This document shows, one piece after another, positions 29,308-33,866 of a stretch of 64,000 bases of DNA. The translations under genes were made by a program, and so were the position numbers. This stretch comes from Archangium violaceum. GTDB taxonomy: Bacteria; Myxococcota; Myxococcia; Myxococcales; Myxococcaceae. The DNA lies in NCBI RefSeq assembly GCF_016887565.1, contig NZ_CP069396.1, positions 10,150,001-10,214,000 of the forward strand, given 5' to 3'. Within the stretch, counting starts at the first letter, position 1. Every line of letters begins with the position of its first letter. The notes under the pieces were generated by a model. The model was given only the letters and a program-made list of their open reading frames with translations. It ran no database searches and was not told where the DNA came from.

Positions 29308-31182
29308 TCAGGGCCCGGCCACCGGCAGGGTGAAGAAGAAGGTGCTGCCGGCCCCCACCTGGGACTCCGCCCAGAGGGTGCCGCCGTGTGCATCCACGAT
29401 GCTCTTGACGATGCTCAGCCCGAGCCCCGTCCCCCGCTCACTCACACTGGACGCCCGCCAGAAGCGCTCGAAGAGATGCGGCAGGTCCTCGGACGAGATG
29501 CCCGGCCCGTTGTCCTTCACCGAGATGCGCACCGACCCATCCACCTGCCGGGCCCGCAGGGAGATGGTACCTCCCTTGGCGGTGAACTTGATGGCATTGC
29601 CCACCAGGTTGGAGAGCACCTGGAGGATGCGCTCCCGGTCGGCGCGCACGCGCGGCAGCCCCGGGCACACCTCCACCTTCAATTCCTGGGACTTCTCCAG
29701 GACGAGCGGCTGGAGCACCTCGAGCGCCTGCCGGAAGAGCTCGTCCACCGTCCACGGCTGGGGCGCCAGCGGCATGGGCATCCCCTGTAGACGCGCCCGG
29801 TCGAGGAGACCCGCGATGAGGTCGCGCATCTGCCCTGTCGCCAGGAGGATGCTCTCCAGGTGGCGGCGGCCACGGTGCCGGCGCTCCTCGTCGGGAGGCC
29901 GCGCGGCCCTGAGGAGCATCTCGGCGTTCAACCTCACCACCAGCAGCGGCGTCTTGATGTCGTGGGAGACGACCGCGAGCATCTCCTCGCGCCAACGCAC
30001 CGCCTCCTGCGCCTGCTGGAAGAGCTGCGCGGTGTCCACCGCCGTCGCGATGCGCTGGGCGAGCACTTCGAAGAGGGCGATGTCGGCCGGACCATAGCGC
30101 CCCGGTTGGGCGGCGATGAGGCTCAGCGTCCCGAGCGTACGGCCCCGCACCTGGATGAGCAGGCGGACGTTGGAGGGCAGACCCTCCCACTCGGCCCGCT
30201 CCACCGGCACGTGCCCCTCCGGTAGGCCCTCGGCGCTCGCCGGGGAGGCCACCCAGGGATGGGAGGCGAGGAGCCGGGCCACGAAGGACTCGCTCCCGGG
30301 AGGGGACCCGGTCGGCTCGACGGCCATCATGGCGATACGCTCGGTACCGCTGGGGCCCGACTGCAGGAGATCAATGACGCAGCAGTCGGCCCACGAGGGC
30401 ACCAGCAGGCGCGCGATGCCAGGAAGCGAGGCGCGGTAGTCCAGTGAGGCGGCGAGCACGGCGCCAGCCTCGGCCATGAAGGCCTGGCGCCGGTGGGCCG
30501 TCTCGGCCTCCAGGTGTGCCTGGCGCTCGCGCTGCAGGAGCTCCCACTGGACACGCTCGAGCGCCTCCGCGCGCTCGCGCAGGTGCACCTCGCGCCGCAG
30601 GGCATGGTGCCGGTCCAGGGCCACCGCGAGCTGGCTGGCGACCGCATCGAGGAAGGCAAGCCCCTCCTCGACGAGCACCTGGGCCGCCTCCACCTGGAGC
30701 GTGCCGAAGACGCGCCCCTTGGCCACCAACGGGAGGGTGATGAAGGTCGGCGAGGCCCGCGCGGGAGACTCCGGGACGAACCACCCCCCCGGTCCTTTCC
30801 GCCCGACCACCGCCTCGCCCTGGGGCTCCACCTCCTTCACCCCCACCAGCCAGGCATACGTGGATGCTGCCTGCTCTGCCGCCAGGGAGAGCTGCGCGGC
30901 CGTCACCTCCCGCACGTGCCAGACGGTCAGGAGCGGGCGGTCCGGGTGGGGTTCGCCGCCCGGGTCCCTCCCCACGAGCAGGAGGGCGGTGCGCAGGAGC
31001 AGCGCCTGGGAGGTGAGCGCCATCACCTCGGGGAAGGTGCGCTCCGTTCCCTCGAAGCCGGCGAGCAGCTTGCTGATCTCATACAGGTAGTCGAGGTGAC
31101 GCCAGGCATGCTCGAGCGCGCGGAAGGCCTGGGGAGGGCTCACCCGCGGTGCCTCGACATTCGACAGGCTCCCCTCGTCCAC
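29308..31182 (-). CDS. GAF-domain sensor histidine kinase
   Basis: 624 residues from GTG 31182. The N-terminus holds a GAF-like domain (about 30-200, PEVMALTSQALLLRTALLLVGRD...GRVFGTLQVEA), a coiled-coil linker (REVHLRERAEALERVQWELLQRERQAHLEAE), a second GAF-like domain (about 245-400, LPGIARLLVPSWADCCVIDLL...GTLSLIAAQPGRYGPADIALFEVLA), HisKA with phospho-His in VVSHDIKTPLLVV (about 420), and a HATPase (VLSNLVGNAIKFTA, VKDNGPGIS, GTGLGLSIVKSIV). There is no transmembrane segment, so it senses an intracellular signal. It is the third gene of an operon with the KaiC-like ATPase, 39 bp upstream, and no response regulator is adjacent. Confidence 0.93.
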   Translation of the reverse strand: MDEGSLSNVEAPRVSPPQAFRALEHAWRHLDYLYEISKLLAGFEGTERTFPEVMALTSQALLLRTALLLVGRDPGGEPHPDRPLLTVWHVREVTAAQLSLAAEQAASTYAWLVGVKEVEPQGEAVVGRKGPGGWFVPESPARASPTFITLPLVAKGRVFGTLQVEAAQVLVEEGLAFLDAVASQLAVALDRHHALRREVHLRERAEALERVQWELLQRERQAHLEAETAHRRQAFMAEAGAVLAASLDYRASLPGIARLLVPSWADCCVIDLLQSGPSGTERIAMMAVEPTGSPPGSESFVARLLASHPWVASPASAEGLPEGHVPVERAEWEGLPSNVRLLIQVRGRTLGTLSLIAAQPGRYGPADIALFEVLAQRIATAVDTAQLFQQAQEAVRWREEMLAVVSHDIKTPLLVVRLNAEMLLRAARPPDEERRHRGRRHLESILLATGQMRDLIAGLLDRARLQGMPMPLAPQPWTVDELFRQALEVLQPLVLEKSQELKVEVCPGLPRVRADRERILQVLSNLVGNAIKFTAKGGTISLRARQVDGSVRISVKDNGPGISSEDLPHLFERFWRASSVSERGTGLGLSIVKSIVDAHGGTLWAESQVGAGSTFFFTLPVAGP

Positions 31183-31221
31183 GAGATGACCCCCTGACGG
31201 TGGCCACCTCGCCGTCCGCCT

Positions 31222-33441
31222 CTACTTCCTGCGCTTCTGGCCGGGCGCCGGACCCCGTCTCTTCTTCACTTCCTTCTTCGCTTCACTGGAAGGTGGGGGC
31301 GCTCCCCCGAACCGGCTACCCAGCCGCAGTCCCCCAGCCCCGAGGAGGAGGCAATGGCTCCCCCTGTCGTGTATACTGCCACGGGTCTTCACCACGGTCA
31401 GCACCGGGACGAGCAGGCCGTTCTCCTGGGCGTAACGGCACATGAGGATGTTGTCGGCGAGTGGAGACAGCCCGTGCTCGCTGAGGGTGTCGGCGAGGAA
31501 GAGAGAGCGCGCTTCCAGGGTGAAGAGGCTCGTCACTCCCAGGCCACGCAGGCGGATGACCAGTCCGTAGAACAACCACCGCAGCTCCTCGGAAACCCTG
31601 CCCTGGAGCTCGATGTCGCTGACGCTGTCGAGCACCAACCGGGAGGGAGCCAGGCTGGAGACCCGCTCCTCCACGGCGTTGAGGAAGCGCGCCGCGTGCA
31701 GCTGCTCGCGCGGCAGGTAGAGGATCTCCACCGTCCCGGCCTCGAGCGCCTCCCGCAGCGGCAGCCCCATCTCCTCGGCCCCCTGGAGGAGCTGGGTGGG
31801 GCCTTCCTCCAGGGTGATGTAGAGGGCGCGCTCGCTGGTGCGCGCCGCCTCGAGCGCGAACTGCAGGCCGAGGGTGCTCTTGCCTGTCCCAGGGCTACCC
31901 GAGACCAAGGTCACGCTGCCGTCGAGCAGCCCGCCGCCCACCAGCGCATCGAGTTGCGGCACGCCAGAGGAGAGCCGCCCCCGGCGAGGCGCGAGCGGGA
32001 TGCGCGGCTCTCGGGCCAACGACTCGTCGAGCCGCGGGAAGATGCGGACGCCCCCATGCGCGATGCTCATCGCGTGCCGGCCCCTGGCATGTGCGGTGTT
32101 GCGCAGCTTGTTCACCTCGATATAGCGGCGGCGCTCGAGGCCCTCCTGCTCCCACGAGAGGAGGACGAGCCCGTCCATCACCGTCTCCTCCACACCGAAG
32201 CGGGTGTACTGCGCCGTACCGGCGGGGACGTCGTTGGTGAAGAGGCCCACCGCCTCCTGGTTCTGCACGATGTTGGCCAGCCAGAACGCCTTGTCGCGCA
32301 CGAGGCGCTTGTCGTCGATCTTGTGGAGGAAGACCGACATCGAGTCGAGCACCACGCGCCGGGCCCCGAAGGACTCGACGTGACGCTGCATCTCCAGGAT
32401 GTGCCGATCCACCAGGATGTCCGGCTGGGGGATGAAGACGATCCGCACCAGCCCTCGTTCGATCTCCCGCTCCAGCTCCCAGCCCAGCCCCCGGGCGGTG
32501 GAGCACAGGCGCTCCTCGGTCTCCTCGAAGGAGAAGAAGATGCCCTTCTCGCCATGGTCCCGGGCACCCCGGTAGATGAACTCCAGCCCCAGCACCGTCT
32601 TGCCGGAGCCCGACACGCCCGAGACGATGATGCTCGAGCCGGGGGGGATGCCCTCGCCGAGGAGCTCATCGAACCTGGAGACGCCGGTCCGCAAGCGGCT
32701 GGCCTCCACCGGGCTCTGTCCGGTGCGGCGCTTGCGCCGCAGGGTGAGGCTCGGCGCGTAGACCTCGATGCCGGCTTGGGTGATGATGAACGGGTGCTTG
32801 TCGCGGCTGTGCCCGGTGCCGCGCATCTTGATGATCTGCAGCAACCGCTGCTGCTCCCCGGACAGCGAGCTCTGCGTGACGGTGATGATGCCGTCGATGG
32901 CGGAGAAGGCCGGGTGCTCGAAGTGGTCGGTGCTGTACTCCCCGAGCAGGAAGGTGGTGCACTCCCAGGCCATCAGCCGGACGATGAGCTCGTAGGTGAA
33001 CTTGCGCAGCTCCTCGGCCGACTGGGAGAGGTCATCGAAGACCTTGTAGCTGTCGATGACCACCATCGAGGGCTTGAACTGCTTGAGCTGCTCCATCAGC
33101 AGGTTGGCCGTCAGCTCGAGCCCCTTGGTCCGGAGCATCAGTCCGAGGTCGATGAAGCGGATGCGTTCCTCGAGCAGCTTCGGATCGAAGAAGGAGAAGG
33201 GCCGCAGGTAGAGCAGCGTCTTGGCGGTCGGCTCGGAGAGGGTGTTGAAGTAGAGGACCCGGCCACCCTGGGTGGCGTGGTGGAAGCACACCTGCTGGGT
33301 GAGGATGGTCTTGCCCGAGCCCGGAGGGCCGGCGATGACCGCCGTCATTCCCTTGGGCAGGCCTCCTTGGAGGATGGCATCCAGGTTGGGAATGCCCGTC
33401 TCCAGCCGGTCGATCGGTGGCTTCTCACCTGGACCGCTCAT
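31222..33441 (-). CDS. KaiC-like ATPase with three RecA domains
   Basis: 739 residues. Three KaiC/RecA-type domains are in tandem: Walker A GPPGSGKT (38-45), GVSGSGKT (about 275), and GSPGTGKS (about 515), with Walker B strands SMVVIDSYK, RRVVLDSMS and SRLVLDSVS. The paired catalytic Glu after Walker A is EE in domains 2 (SFEETEE) and 3 (TLEEGPT) but a single Glu in domain 1 (TLSEPT). Cyanobacterial KaiC has two domains. Three is unusual. The C-terminus is Lys/Arg-rich (VKKRRGPAPGQKRRK). The small protein upstream ends with ATGA overlap at this start; the histidine kinase follows 39 bp downstream. No kaiA or kaiB is present. ATP-driven scaffold or signalling switch is inferred. Confidence 0.9.
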   Translation of the reverse strand: MSGPGEKPPIDRLETGIPNLDAILQGGLPKGMTAVIAGPPGSGKTILTQQVCFHHATQGGRVLYFNTLSEPTAKTLLYLRPFSFFDPKLLEERIRFIDLGLMLRTKGLELTANLLMEQLKQFKPSMVVIDSYKVFDDLSQSAEELRKFTYELIVRLMAWECTTFLLGEYSTDHFEHPAFSAIDGIITVTQSSLSGEQQRLLQIIKMRGTGHSRDKHPFIITQAGIEVYAPSLTLRRKRRTGQSPVEASRLRTGVSRFDELLGEGIPPGSSIIVSGVSGSGKTVLGLEFIYRGARDHGEKGIFFSFEETEERLCSTARGLGWELEREIERGLVRIVFIPQPDILVDRHILEMQRHVESFGARRVVLDSMSVFLHKIDDKRLVRDKAFWLANIVQNQEAVGLFTNDVPAGTAQYTRFGVEETVMDGLVLLSWEQEGLERRRYIEVNKLRNTAHARGRHAMSIAHGGVRIFPRLDESLAREPRIPLAPRRGRLSSGVPQLDALVGGGLLDGSVTLVSGSPGTGKSTLGLQFALEAARTSERALYITLEEGPTQLLQGAEEMGLPLREALEAGTVEILYLPREQLHAARFLNAVEERVSSLAPSRLVLDSVSDIELQGRVSEELRWLFYGLVIRLRGLGVTSLFTLEARSLFLADTLSEHGLSPLADNILMCRYAQENGLLVPVLTVVKTRGSIHDRGSHCLLLGAGGLRLGSRFGGAPPPSSEAKKEVKKRRGPAPGQKRRK

Positions 33442-33866
33442 GCCTTTCCACCCTTCTCTTCCGCTGGCTGGACCCGCACCTTGTGCAACTCCGCATGGAG
33501 GCCCGGCGTGAGGATCTCTCCGGTAAGAGCCCCGAGCACCCGCAGCAGTTCGACGACCAGGAACGCGAGGGACTCATCGAGCAACGCCAGCTCGAGGCCC
33601 GCGACGGCCGGGCCCAGTGGCCCGAGGTGCACGCCGCTCGTCTCGACCTTGAGCGCCGCGAGGTGCGGGAACTTCTCGGTCCCATGGTGGAGCACCCGGT
33701 CCACGATGGCCATGAGGGTGATCTCCCCCAGACTCAGGTGGGTCCGGCGCCAGAGCGCATCCAAGGCGCGGTCGTAGAGGTCGATCAGCTCTTGCGGCGA
33801 CAGGGTCCCCGCCCAGCCCTCGCGCCAGGCCCTCACCGTCTCGCTGTGGATGTTCCGCTCGGACAT
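33438..33866 (-). CDS. Small helical protein coupled to the KaiC-like ATPase
   Basis: 142 residues from ATG 33866. Mostly alpha-helical: SERNIHSETVRAWREGWAGTLSPQELIDLYDRALDALWRRTHLSLGEITLMAIVDRVLHHGTEKFPHLAALKVE, then LGPAVAGLELALLDESLAFLVVELLRVLGALTGEI, and a charged tail (VQPAEEKGGKA). It lacks known catalytic motifs. The stop overlaps the KaiC-like ATG by four bases (ATGA), so the two are made together. It is likely a binding partner or regulator of the KaiC-like protein. I do not recognise the family. Confidence 0.8.
   Translation of the reverse strand: MSERNIHSETVRAWREGWAGTLSPQELIDLYDRALDALWRRTHLSLGEITLMAIVDRVLHHGTEKFPHLAALKVETSGVHLGPLGPAVAGLELALLDESLAFLVVELLRVLGALTGEILTPGLHAELHKVRVQPAEEKGGKA

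Follow-up and report, generated by a model that had tools for sequence, protein, structure and literature searches.

How does KaiC communicate with a histidine kinase outside the cyanobacteria? The matter is puzzling because SasA homologues outside this phylum lack the KaiB-like docking domain, according to the accessible part of PMC5520375. The question is raised anew by a small operon from the myxobacterium Archangium violaceum, located in the 64,000-nt stretch of DNA analyzed here (NZ_CP069396.1, positions 10,150,001 to 10,214,000; referred to as the window). It encodes a helical protein (HEL), a three-domain relative of KaiC (domains D1 to D3) and a histidine kinase (HK), as summarized in Table 1. 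KaiC relatives are widespread, and HEL is a candidate for the link between KaiC and kinase outside the cyanobacteria, as it is encoded beside KaiC, is retained with the kinase after KaiC loss and in one case forms a single frame with the kinase.

Table 1. Features of the HEL-KaiC-HK locus, with positions in the window.
Feature	Position	Strand	Remarks
HEL, 142-aa helical protein	33438..33866	-	member of a KaiC-associated family; AlphaFold pLDDT 86.9; no Pfam match
HEL motif TPxLH, residues 120-124	33495..33509	-	tied to KaiC presence
ATGA, HEL stop / KaiC start	33438..33441	-	4-nt overlap; ATGA shared by the order's 16 other loci with KaiC
KaiC-like protein, 739 aa	31222..33441	-	three KaiC domains
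KaiC D1, residues 8-236	32734..33420	-	groups with N-domains of two-component-linked KaiCs
S69-E70 of D1	33232..33237	-	place of the Glu pair
KaiC D2, residues 247-480	32002..32703	-	nearest CI
KaiC D3, residues 487-712	31306..31983	-	CII side
S659-P660 of D3	31462..31467	-	aligned with Ser431-Thr432 of clock KaiC
GAF histidine kinase (HK), 624 aa	29308..31182	-	GTG start
HisKA of HK, residues 398-466	29785..29991	-	His407
HATPase_c of HK, residues 515-622	29317..29640	-	

All three parts of the original prediction for this locus, i.e. a coupled helical protein, a KaiC-like ATPase and a GAF histidine kinase, were found, including the ATGA overlap between HEL and KaiC. The KaiC-like protein matches PF06745 in three stretches with 404 bits (Pfam cut-off 26.6), and the three Walker A sites that had been claimed for it start at residues 38, 275 and 515. 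The HK gene follows after a gap of 39 bases; Pfam assigns to its product GAF in two stretches, HisKA and HATPase_c and no KaiB domain, the KaiB match of the same genome being located elsewhere. HEL is matched by neither Pfam nor NCBIfam. Structural searches with HEL gave 36 PDB matches with Foldseek at E values up to 10 (best 1.7, none at 0.001) and a best Z of 4.9 with VIA-align (none at 5). The rows listed, for silk repeats, globins and designed proteins, were rejected as kin, KaiA was absent among the Foldseek and VIA rows, and the HEL profile had no match among PDB sequences at an E value of 1.

The claim that kaiA and kaiB are missing stands for the operon, where neither gene is present, and for kaiA also genome-wide, as the 13.2-Mb genome (one contig) gave no KaiA match. 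For kaiB it holds for the operon only, because the sole KaiB domain of the genome is found in a REC-KaiB protein encoded beside a different KaiC, approximately 7 Mb away. With kaiA missing and the lone KaiB domain adjoining another KaiC, the gene content departs from that of a KaiABC clock. In total, eight KaiC proteins are encoded (22 domain matches, grouped by us), of which only that of the window has three domains, and the HEL profile (A2, see below) found no HEL at any of the seven other KaiC loci. At the KaiB locus (G000:C1 ~3177836-3180042; L117:5837-8043, minus strand), the receiver-KaiB gene overlaps kaiC by 4 nt, and this KaiC groups with the clock type and carries an altered Walker A in its first domain. 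Three further loci of the genome (L119, L122 and L123) harbor a two-domain KaiC followed by a single receiver-domain gene, two of them also being preceded by an HK.

The succession of kaiC and a histidine kinase gene without kaiB was described in 2011 for Rta_04330/Rta_04340 of Ramlibacter tataouinensis and relatives (PMC3164672), so this part of the operon was already known. As in the window, the HK directly follows kaiC in these operons, and kaiA and kaiB are absent from them. In contrast, the text on the Ramlibacter-type operons names neither an upstream helical partner nor a three-domain KaiC, and their kinases share a common KaiB/SasA-like N-terminal region, whereas the sensor of the window HK is GAF. 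The cyanobacterial KaiABC-SasA clock has the KaiC fold in common with the window, with D2 and D3 aligning with CI and CII; it differs in that the window system contains an additional N-terminal KaiC domain, only one of two phosphosites and HEL within the operon, and lacks KaiA as well as a KaiB-like domain in the HK. Myxobacteria, i. e. the same order, reportedly encode one to seven KaiC homologues per genome, of unknown function and commonly with single or no phosphosites; the accessible part of that study describes neither a three-domain KaiC nor a helical partner (PMC11832031). Archaeal signaling hubs likewise feature KaiC domains that are wired to two-component proteins, some of them inactivated, but they are archaeal, and the accessible portion of PMC5847659 does not mention a HEL partner. 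In the open-licence literature searched, no account of a three-domain KaiC or of a helical, KaiC-associated partner was found. Hence, the HEL family and the hybrid three-domain KaiC look new, in contrast to the KaiC-HK operon without kaiB.

The original prediction further stated that D1 lacks one of the paired catalytic Glu residues. D1 indeed reads S69-E70 where other KaiC domains read Glu-Glu, and among 25 D1 rows (window included, L115 left out) the first place is occupied by Ser in 24 and by Thr in one, with the second Glu kept in 25/25. This register is based on a D1-D3 profile alignment, the predicted helix start and paralogues; a D1-D2 profile alignment disagrees and sets E70 on the first Glu rather than the Ser. 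In a predicted KaiC structure (pTM 0.42, used for secondary structure alone), the distance to the following helix is three residues for Ser69, Glu306 and Glu545 alike, the D1 loop being one residue longer. The catalytic Glu of KaiC is the first of each pair, E77 and E318, according to the accessible parts of PMC2777353 and PMC6549140. D2 displays Glu-Glu in 24/24 rows, and D3 combines Glu (21) or Asp (1) at the first place with the second Glu in 22/22 rows. Walker A of D1 is retained in all rows examined, as is the second Glu, so that the suggested non-hydrolyzing nature of D1 is conjectural. The loss is not special to the three-domain KaiC, since it is shared by the N-domains of six of the seven other KaiC proteins of the genome, the seventh reading Glu-Glu.

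A domain tree of 47 rows, in which one designed KaiC (PDB 8zn6) serves as the clock-type reference, joins D1 of 11 KaiCs with N-domains from the window’s genome, namely those of six further KaiC proteins (100/100), most of which adjoin kinases or receiver proteins. D2 is placed with CI (94/73), and D3 falls with the C-type domains as a whole (100/97) and with CII itself (92/70); the 100/100 and 100/97 joins are strong, the 94/73 and 92/70 values below the level of starred branches. With D1 falling among N-domains and D2-D3 near CI-CII, the protein therefore looks like a hybrid in which an N-type domain precedes a clock-like pair, support for the D2-D3/CI-CII relation being moderate. Of the two phosphosites of clock KaiC, the counterpart of Ser431 in D3 is kept in 22/22 rows, and that of Thr432 is Pro in 20 and Ala in two, so Thr occurs in 0/22; the window thus reads Ser-Pro, and the 22 rows together give 20 Ser-Pro and two Ser-Ala instead of Ser-Thr. 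Three domains take the place of the circadian CI-CII pair, and the scores for the circadian KaiC models stay under the NCBIfam cut-offs (274 versus 546 bits for TIGR02655, 375 versus 408 bits for PRK09302). The absence of KaiA, an operon without KaiB and the single phosphosite fit the predicted non-circadian role.

Anatomy and conservation of the locus are firm. The original prediction had pointed to gene order in the Myxococcales as a means of verification, and a conserved unit emerged there. A HEL query detected 30 loci in 29 of 145 genomes of the order. KaiC is encoded directly 3’ of HEL in 17 of these loci (window included), and 13 are without KaiC. The HK comes next in 28/30; of the remaining two, L053 stops at a contig end and L063 contains HEL and KaiC without an HK core downstream. 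In all 13 KaiC-less loci HEL adjoins the HK. The HEL gene ends in ATGA in 17/17 KaiC-bearing loci and in ATGA, GTGA or TTGA in the 13 KaiC-less ones. Conversely, a KaiC query (E value 1e-90) gave 18 matches in 17/145 genomes, 17 of which are the HEL loci and the 18th of which (in G012) starts at a contig end; the genomes of the 13 KaiC-less HEL loci contained no KaiC match at 1e-90 or better. Both genes occur in 16 genomes of the order, KaiC alone in one (that with the contig end), HEL alone in 13 and neither in 115, a co-occurrence with a Fisher p value of 1.4e-12 (145 genomes, relatedness uncorrected).

When 84,980 species genomes were scanned, a subset profile picked up 18 loci, of which seven repeat genomes of the order. 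The 11 others come from records of Deltaproteobacteria, Myxococcales, Proteobacteria, Gammaproteobacteria, Gemmatimonadetes and Cyanobacteria. The genes could have failed to co-occur in relatives, which would have spoken against the proposed unit; this was not the case, and outside the order KaiC is encoded beside HEL in 10 of the 11 loci, the exception being L102. Among these 10, L101 is frame-broken, L110 is partly inverted, and L103 and L111 are cut by contig ends. In L101, L106 and L115, KaiC carries just two domains.

The family reaches further. A weak match in the phylum Gemmatimonadota (genome G413) comprises a HEL-like gene followed by genes for a two-domain KaiC and an HK. Used as a query, it gave 33 matches in 32 of 298 genomes of its phylum, and KaiC is encoded directly downstream in all 30 loci that were available for these 33 matches, the query’s own included; by a rough estimate from the window’s genome, a random 3.3-kb stretch has a chance of about 0.3% of meeting a KaiC gene. 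A profile of the G413-derived set (A5) is homologous to the HEL family alignment (A2; 26 members in the Pfam search), as indicated by an hhalign E value of 4.7e-9 over 109 columns. Without L115, the E value is 1.8e-8 and the score 53.5, whereas 30 column shuffles never exceeded 17.8. A5 also matches HEL of L054 directly at 1.8e-5. In the window’s genome it found nothing, the HEL of the window included, and the two subfamilies are therefore far apart. Because 10-20 candidates were scored per genome, the phylum counts with A5 are lower bounds. They amount to at least 15 of 195 genomes in the window’s phylum, with 17 matches, 13 of them next to KaiC; the other four are the single frame L116, one match at the edge of a contig and, within long frames, the short matches L192 and L193. 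At least four of 369 genomes in the phylum of L103 contributed five matches, two clearly next to KaiC, and at least one of 319 genomes was found in the phylum of L112, namely a cyanobacterial member (L196) without KaiC within 1.5 kb. In the latter, the 144-aa HEL-family frame (L196:1465-1899, plus strand) stands on its own, flanked by genes that look like ilvC and purC on visual inspection.

Several candidates were discarded, i. e. weak matches without KaiC support (G451 C122, corresponding to L146, as well as L199 and L200), the two short matches in long frames, which likewise lack KaiC support, and L201, where the match lies in a frame that overlaps a KaiC frame. Three matches of A5 to the PDB (E values 0.24-0.66), scattered single Pfam matches of the 26 A2 members (0.024-0.27), the Pfam matches of A5 and its one NCBIfam match at 0.068 were taken as chance. 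The HEL family has no accepted Pfam or NCBIfam match and lies beside KaiC in several phyla. It appears undescribed in the open-licence literature searched. In 13 longer loci of our choice, KaiC is followed by an HK in nine, a GGDEF-EAL protein in one, a contig end in one and neither kind of protein in two (L212 and L215, whose KaiC is not directly followed by an HK in the same orientation). The GGDEF-EAL protein (L210:7455-9002, plus strand) occupies the kinase’s place after HEL and KaiC. A 563-aa KaiC (L145:1217-2908, minus strand) exhibits an extra C-terminal stretch past its second domain. Of the 33 N-domain rows beside the wider family, 31 show the site, and in these the first Glu is replaced by Gly in 30 and by Ser in one.

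A near-identical pair of genomes with and without KaiC constitutes a ready-made natural experiment. G014 (locus L115) encodes HEL, a two-domain KaiC and an HK, and in G013 (L116) HEL and HK form one 542-aa frame. The flanks are 97.2% identical over 4225 bp and 96.0% over 8357 bp, and 1476 bp of L115, nearly the entire KaiC gene, face 10 bp of L116. Since the junction falls inside both neighboring genes, about 1.47 kb were probably lost in G013 rather than gained in G014. The HEL of this pair is far from that of the window (A2 profile E values 2.7e-7 and 1.3e-5, 675 frames searched) and fits the wider family at 3.6e-21. Outside the order, L102 lacks KaiC and joins HEL to the HK in a single reading frame, although translation of the HK might begin at an internal Met there; its 3.2-Mb genome contains no KaiC match at 1e-30.

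In an HK tree of 43 rows (KaiC state known for 39), nine KaiC-less kinases of the Myxococcus group nest in the window’s KaiC-bearing clade (98/98, 95/90), and L102 nests with the KaiC-bearing L097 and L100 (100/100). This tree needs five state changes, and starred branches force four of them where the KaiC-less label is concerned; its deep joins are unsure because long branches are joined there. The HEL tree needs four changes, two of them forced. The topology of the HK tree implies that KaiC was lost repeatedly, with HEL and HK being retained. Loss of KaiC is accompanied by changes in HEL. From 36 HEL columns that are at least 85% conserved in 27 KaiC-bearing rows, seven (H7, E64, F102, I118, T120, P121 and H124) are kept in less than 35% of 13 KaiC-less rows, the other 29 being better kept; as nine of these 13 rows belong to one clade, the result rests on three lineages. 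H124 is present in 27/27 KaiC-bearing versus 0/13 KaiC-less rows. This count omits L102 and L116, the latter not being alignable there with confidence. The KaiC-less L102 retains the motif as TPELH, so that TPxLH is altered in 13 of the 14 alignable KaiC-less loci.

Taken together, we favor with modest confidence that the operon encodes an input module through which KaiC drives a two-component kinase, and in which HEL would couple the nucleotide state of KaiC to the HK. By analogy to its family, KaiC would assemble into stacked rings. D1 could bind ATP without having the catalytic Glu and act chiefly as a platform that depends on nucleotide, D2 and D3 with both Glu residues kept would hydrolyze ATP, and D3 may autophosphorylate at its single retained Ser. 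HEL might then dock on the ring of D1-type N-domains and relay its state to the GAF kinase, thereby taking over what in cyanobacteria is done by KaiB and by SasA’s KaiB-like domain, and the HK would signal to an unlinked response regulator. Rings, binding, signal direction and output are what we infer here. Throughout the order, HEL lies beside 17 of the 18 matches to this type of KaiC, which is never HEL-less where the 5’ side is visible. Many KaiC-HK operons without HEL argue against the coupling model, as do L063, L210, L212 and L215, in which no HK takes the place after KaiC, the TPxLH motif kept in the KaiC-less L102 and the cyanobacterial family member with no KaiC nearby. The discordant D1-D2 profile alignment likewise counts against this view of D1. 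More tentatively, and with odds that we place somewhat under even, HEL may represent an ancient, so far unrecognized adaptor family of non-circadian KaiC proteins in several phyla that reads the nucleotide state of a ring of N-domains devoid of the catalytic Glu and signals to histidine kinases or c-di-GMP enzymes independently of KaiB and SasA.

The persistence of HEL beside the HK in all 13 KaiC-less loci of the order, together with the single HEL-HK frames of L116 and L102 (the latter with its possible internal start of the HK), could also mean that HEL regulates the HK alone and that KaiC, as a loosely associated sensor of energy or ATP, acts directly on the kinase. We consider this unlikely, as the constant pair in the wider family is HEL and KaiC (30/30) with a varying output gene (HK in 9/13, one GGDEF-EAL), and as the HEL motif changes after KaiC loss. 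The same persistence bears on a role of HEL as an assembly factor that builds or stabilizes the KaiC ring. Such a chaperone would accord with a small helical protein encoded directly 5’ of KaiC with translational overlap; yet HEL without KaiC still adjoins the HK, so it is not merely a KaiC chaperone, and its retention in 13/30 loci, in genomes without a KaiC match at 1e-90, as well as its single frame with the kinase in L116 make this reading improbable. Conceivably, the operon might instead be a KaiC-based timer of hourglass or clock-like type, with HEL in the position of KaiA or KaiB, given that D2-D3 resemble CI-CII, that the Ser431 counterpart is invariant and that hourglass ideas have been put forward for KaiC-HK operons (PMC3164672). 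We rate this slightly lower still, since Pro or Ala replaces the Thr432 counterpart throughout, the genome lacks KaiA and its only KaiB domain goes with another KaiC.

The label of a complete signaling unit, given in the original prediction, is unsupported because no response regulator is linked and because KaiC was dispensable in evolution, as seen in the 13 of 30 loci without it. In 42 loci and the window that were scanned, a receiver protein adjoins the HK only in L110. In this metagenome contig (L110:8001-13259), the part of KaiC comprising D2 and D3 and the start of the HK are inverted inside the operon, either by an assembly fault or by a real inversion, and are followed by the receiver protein.
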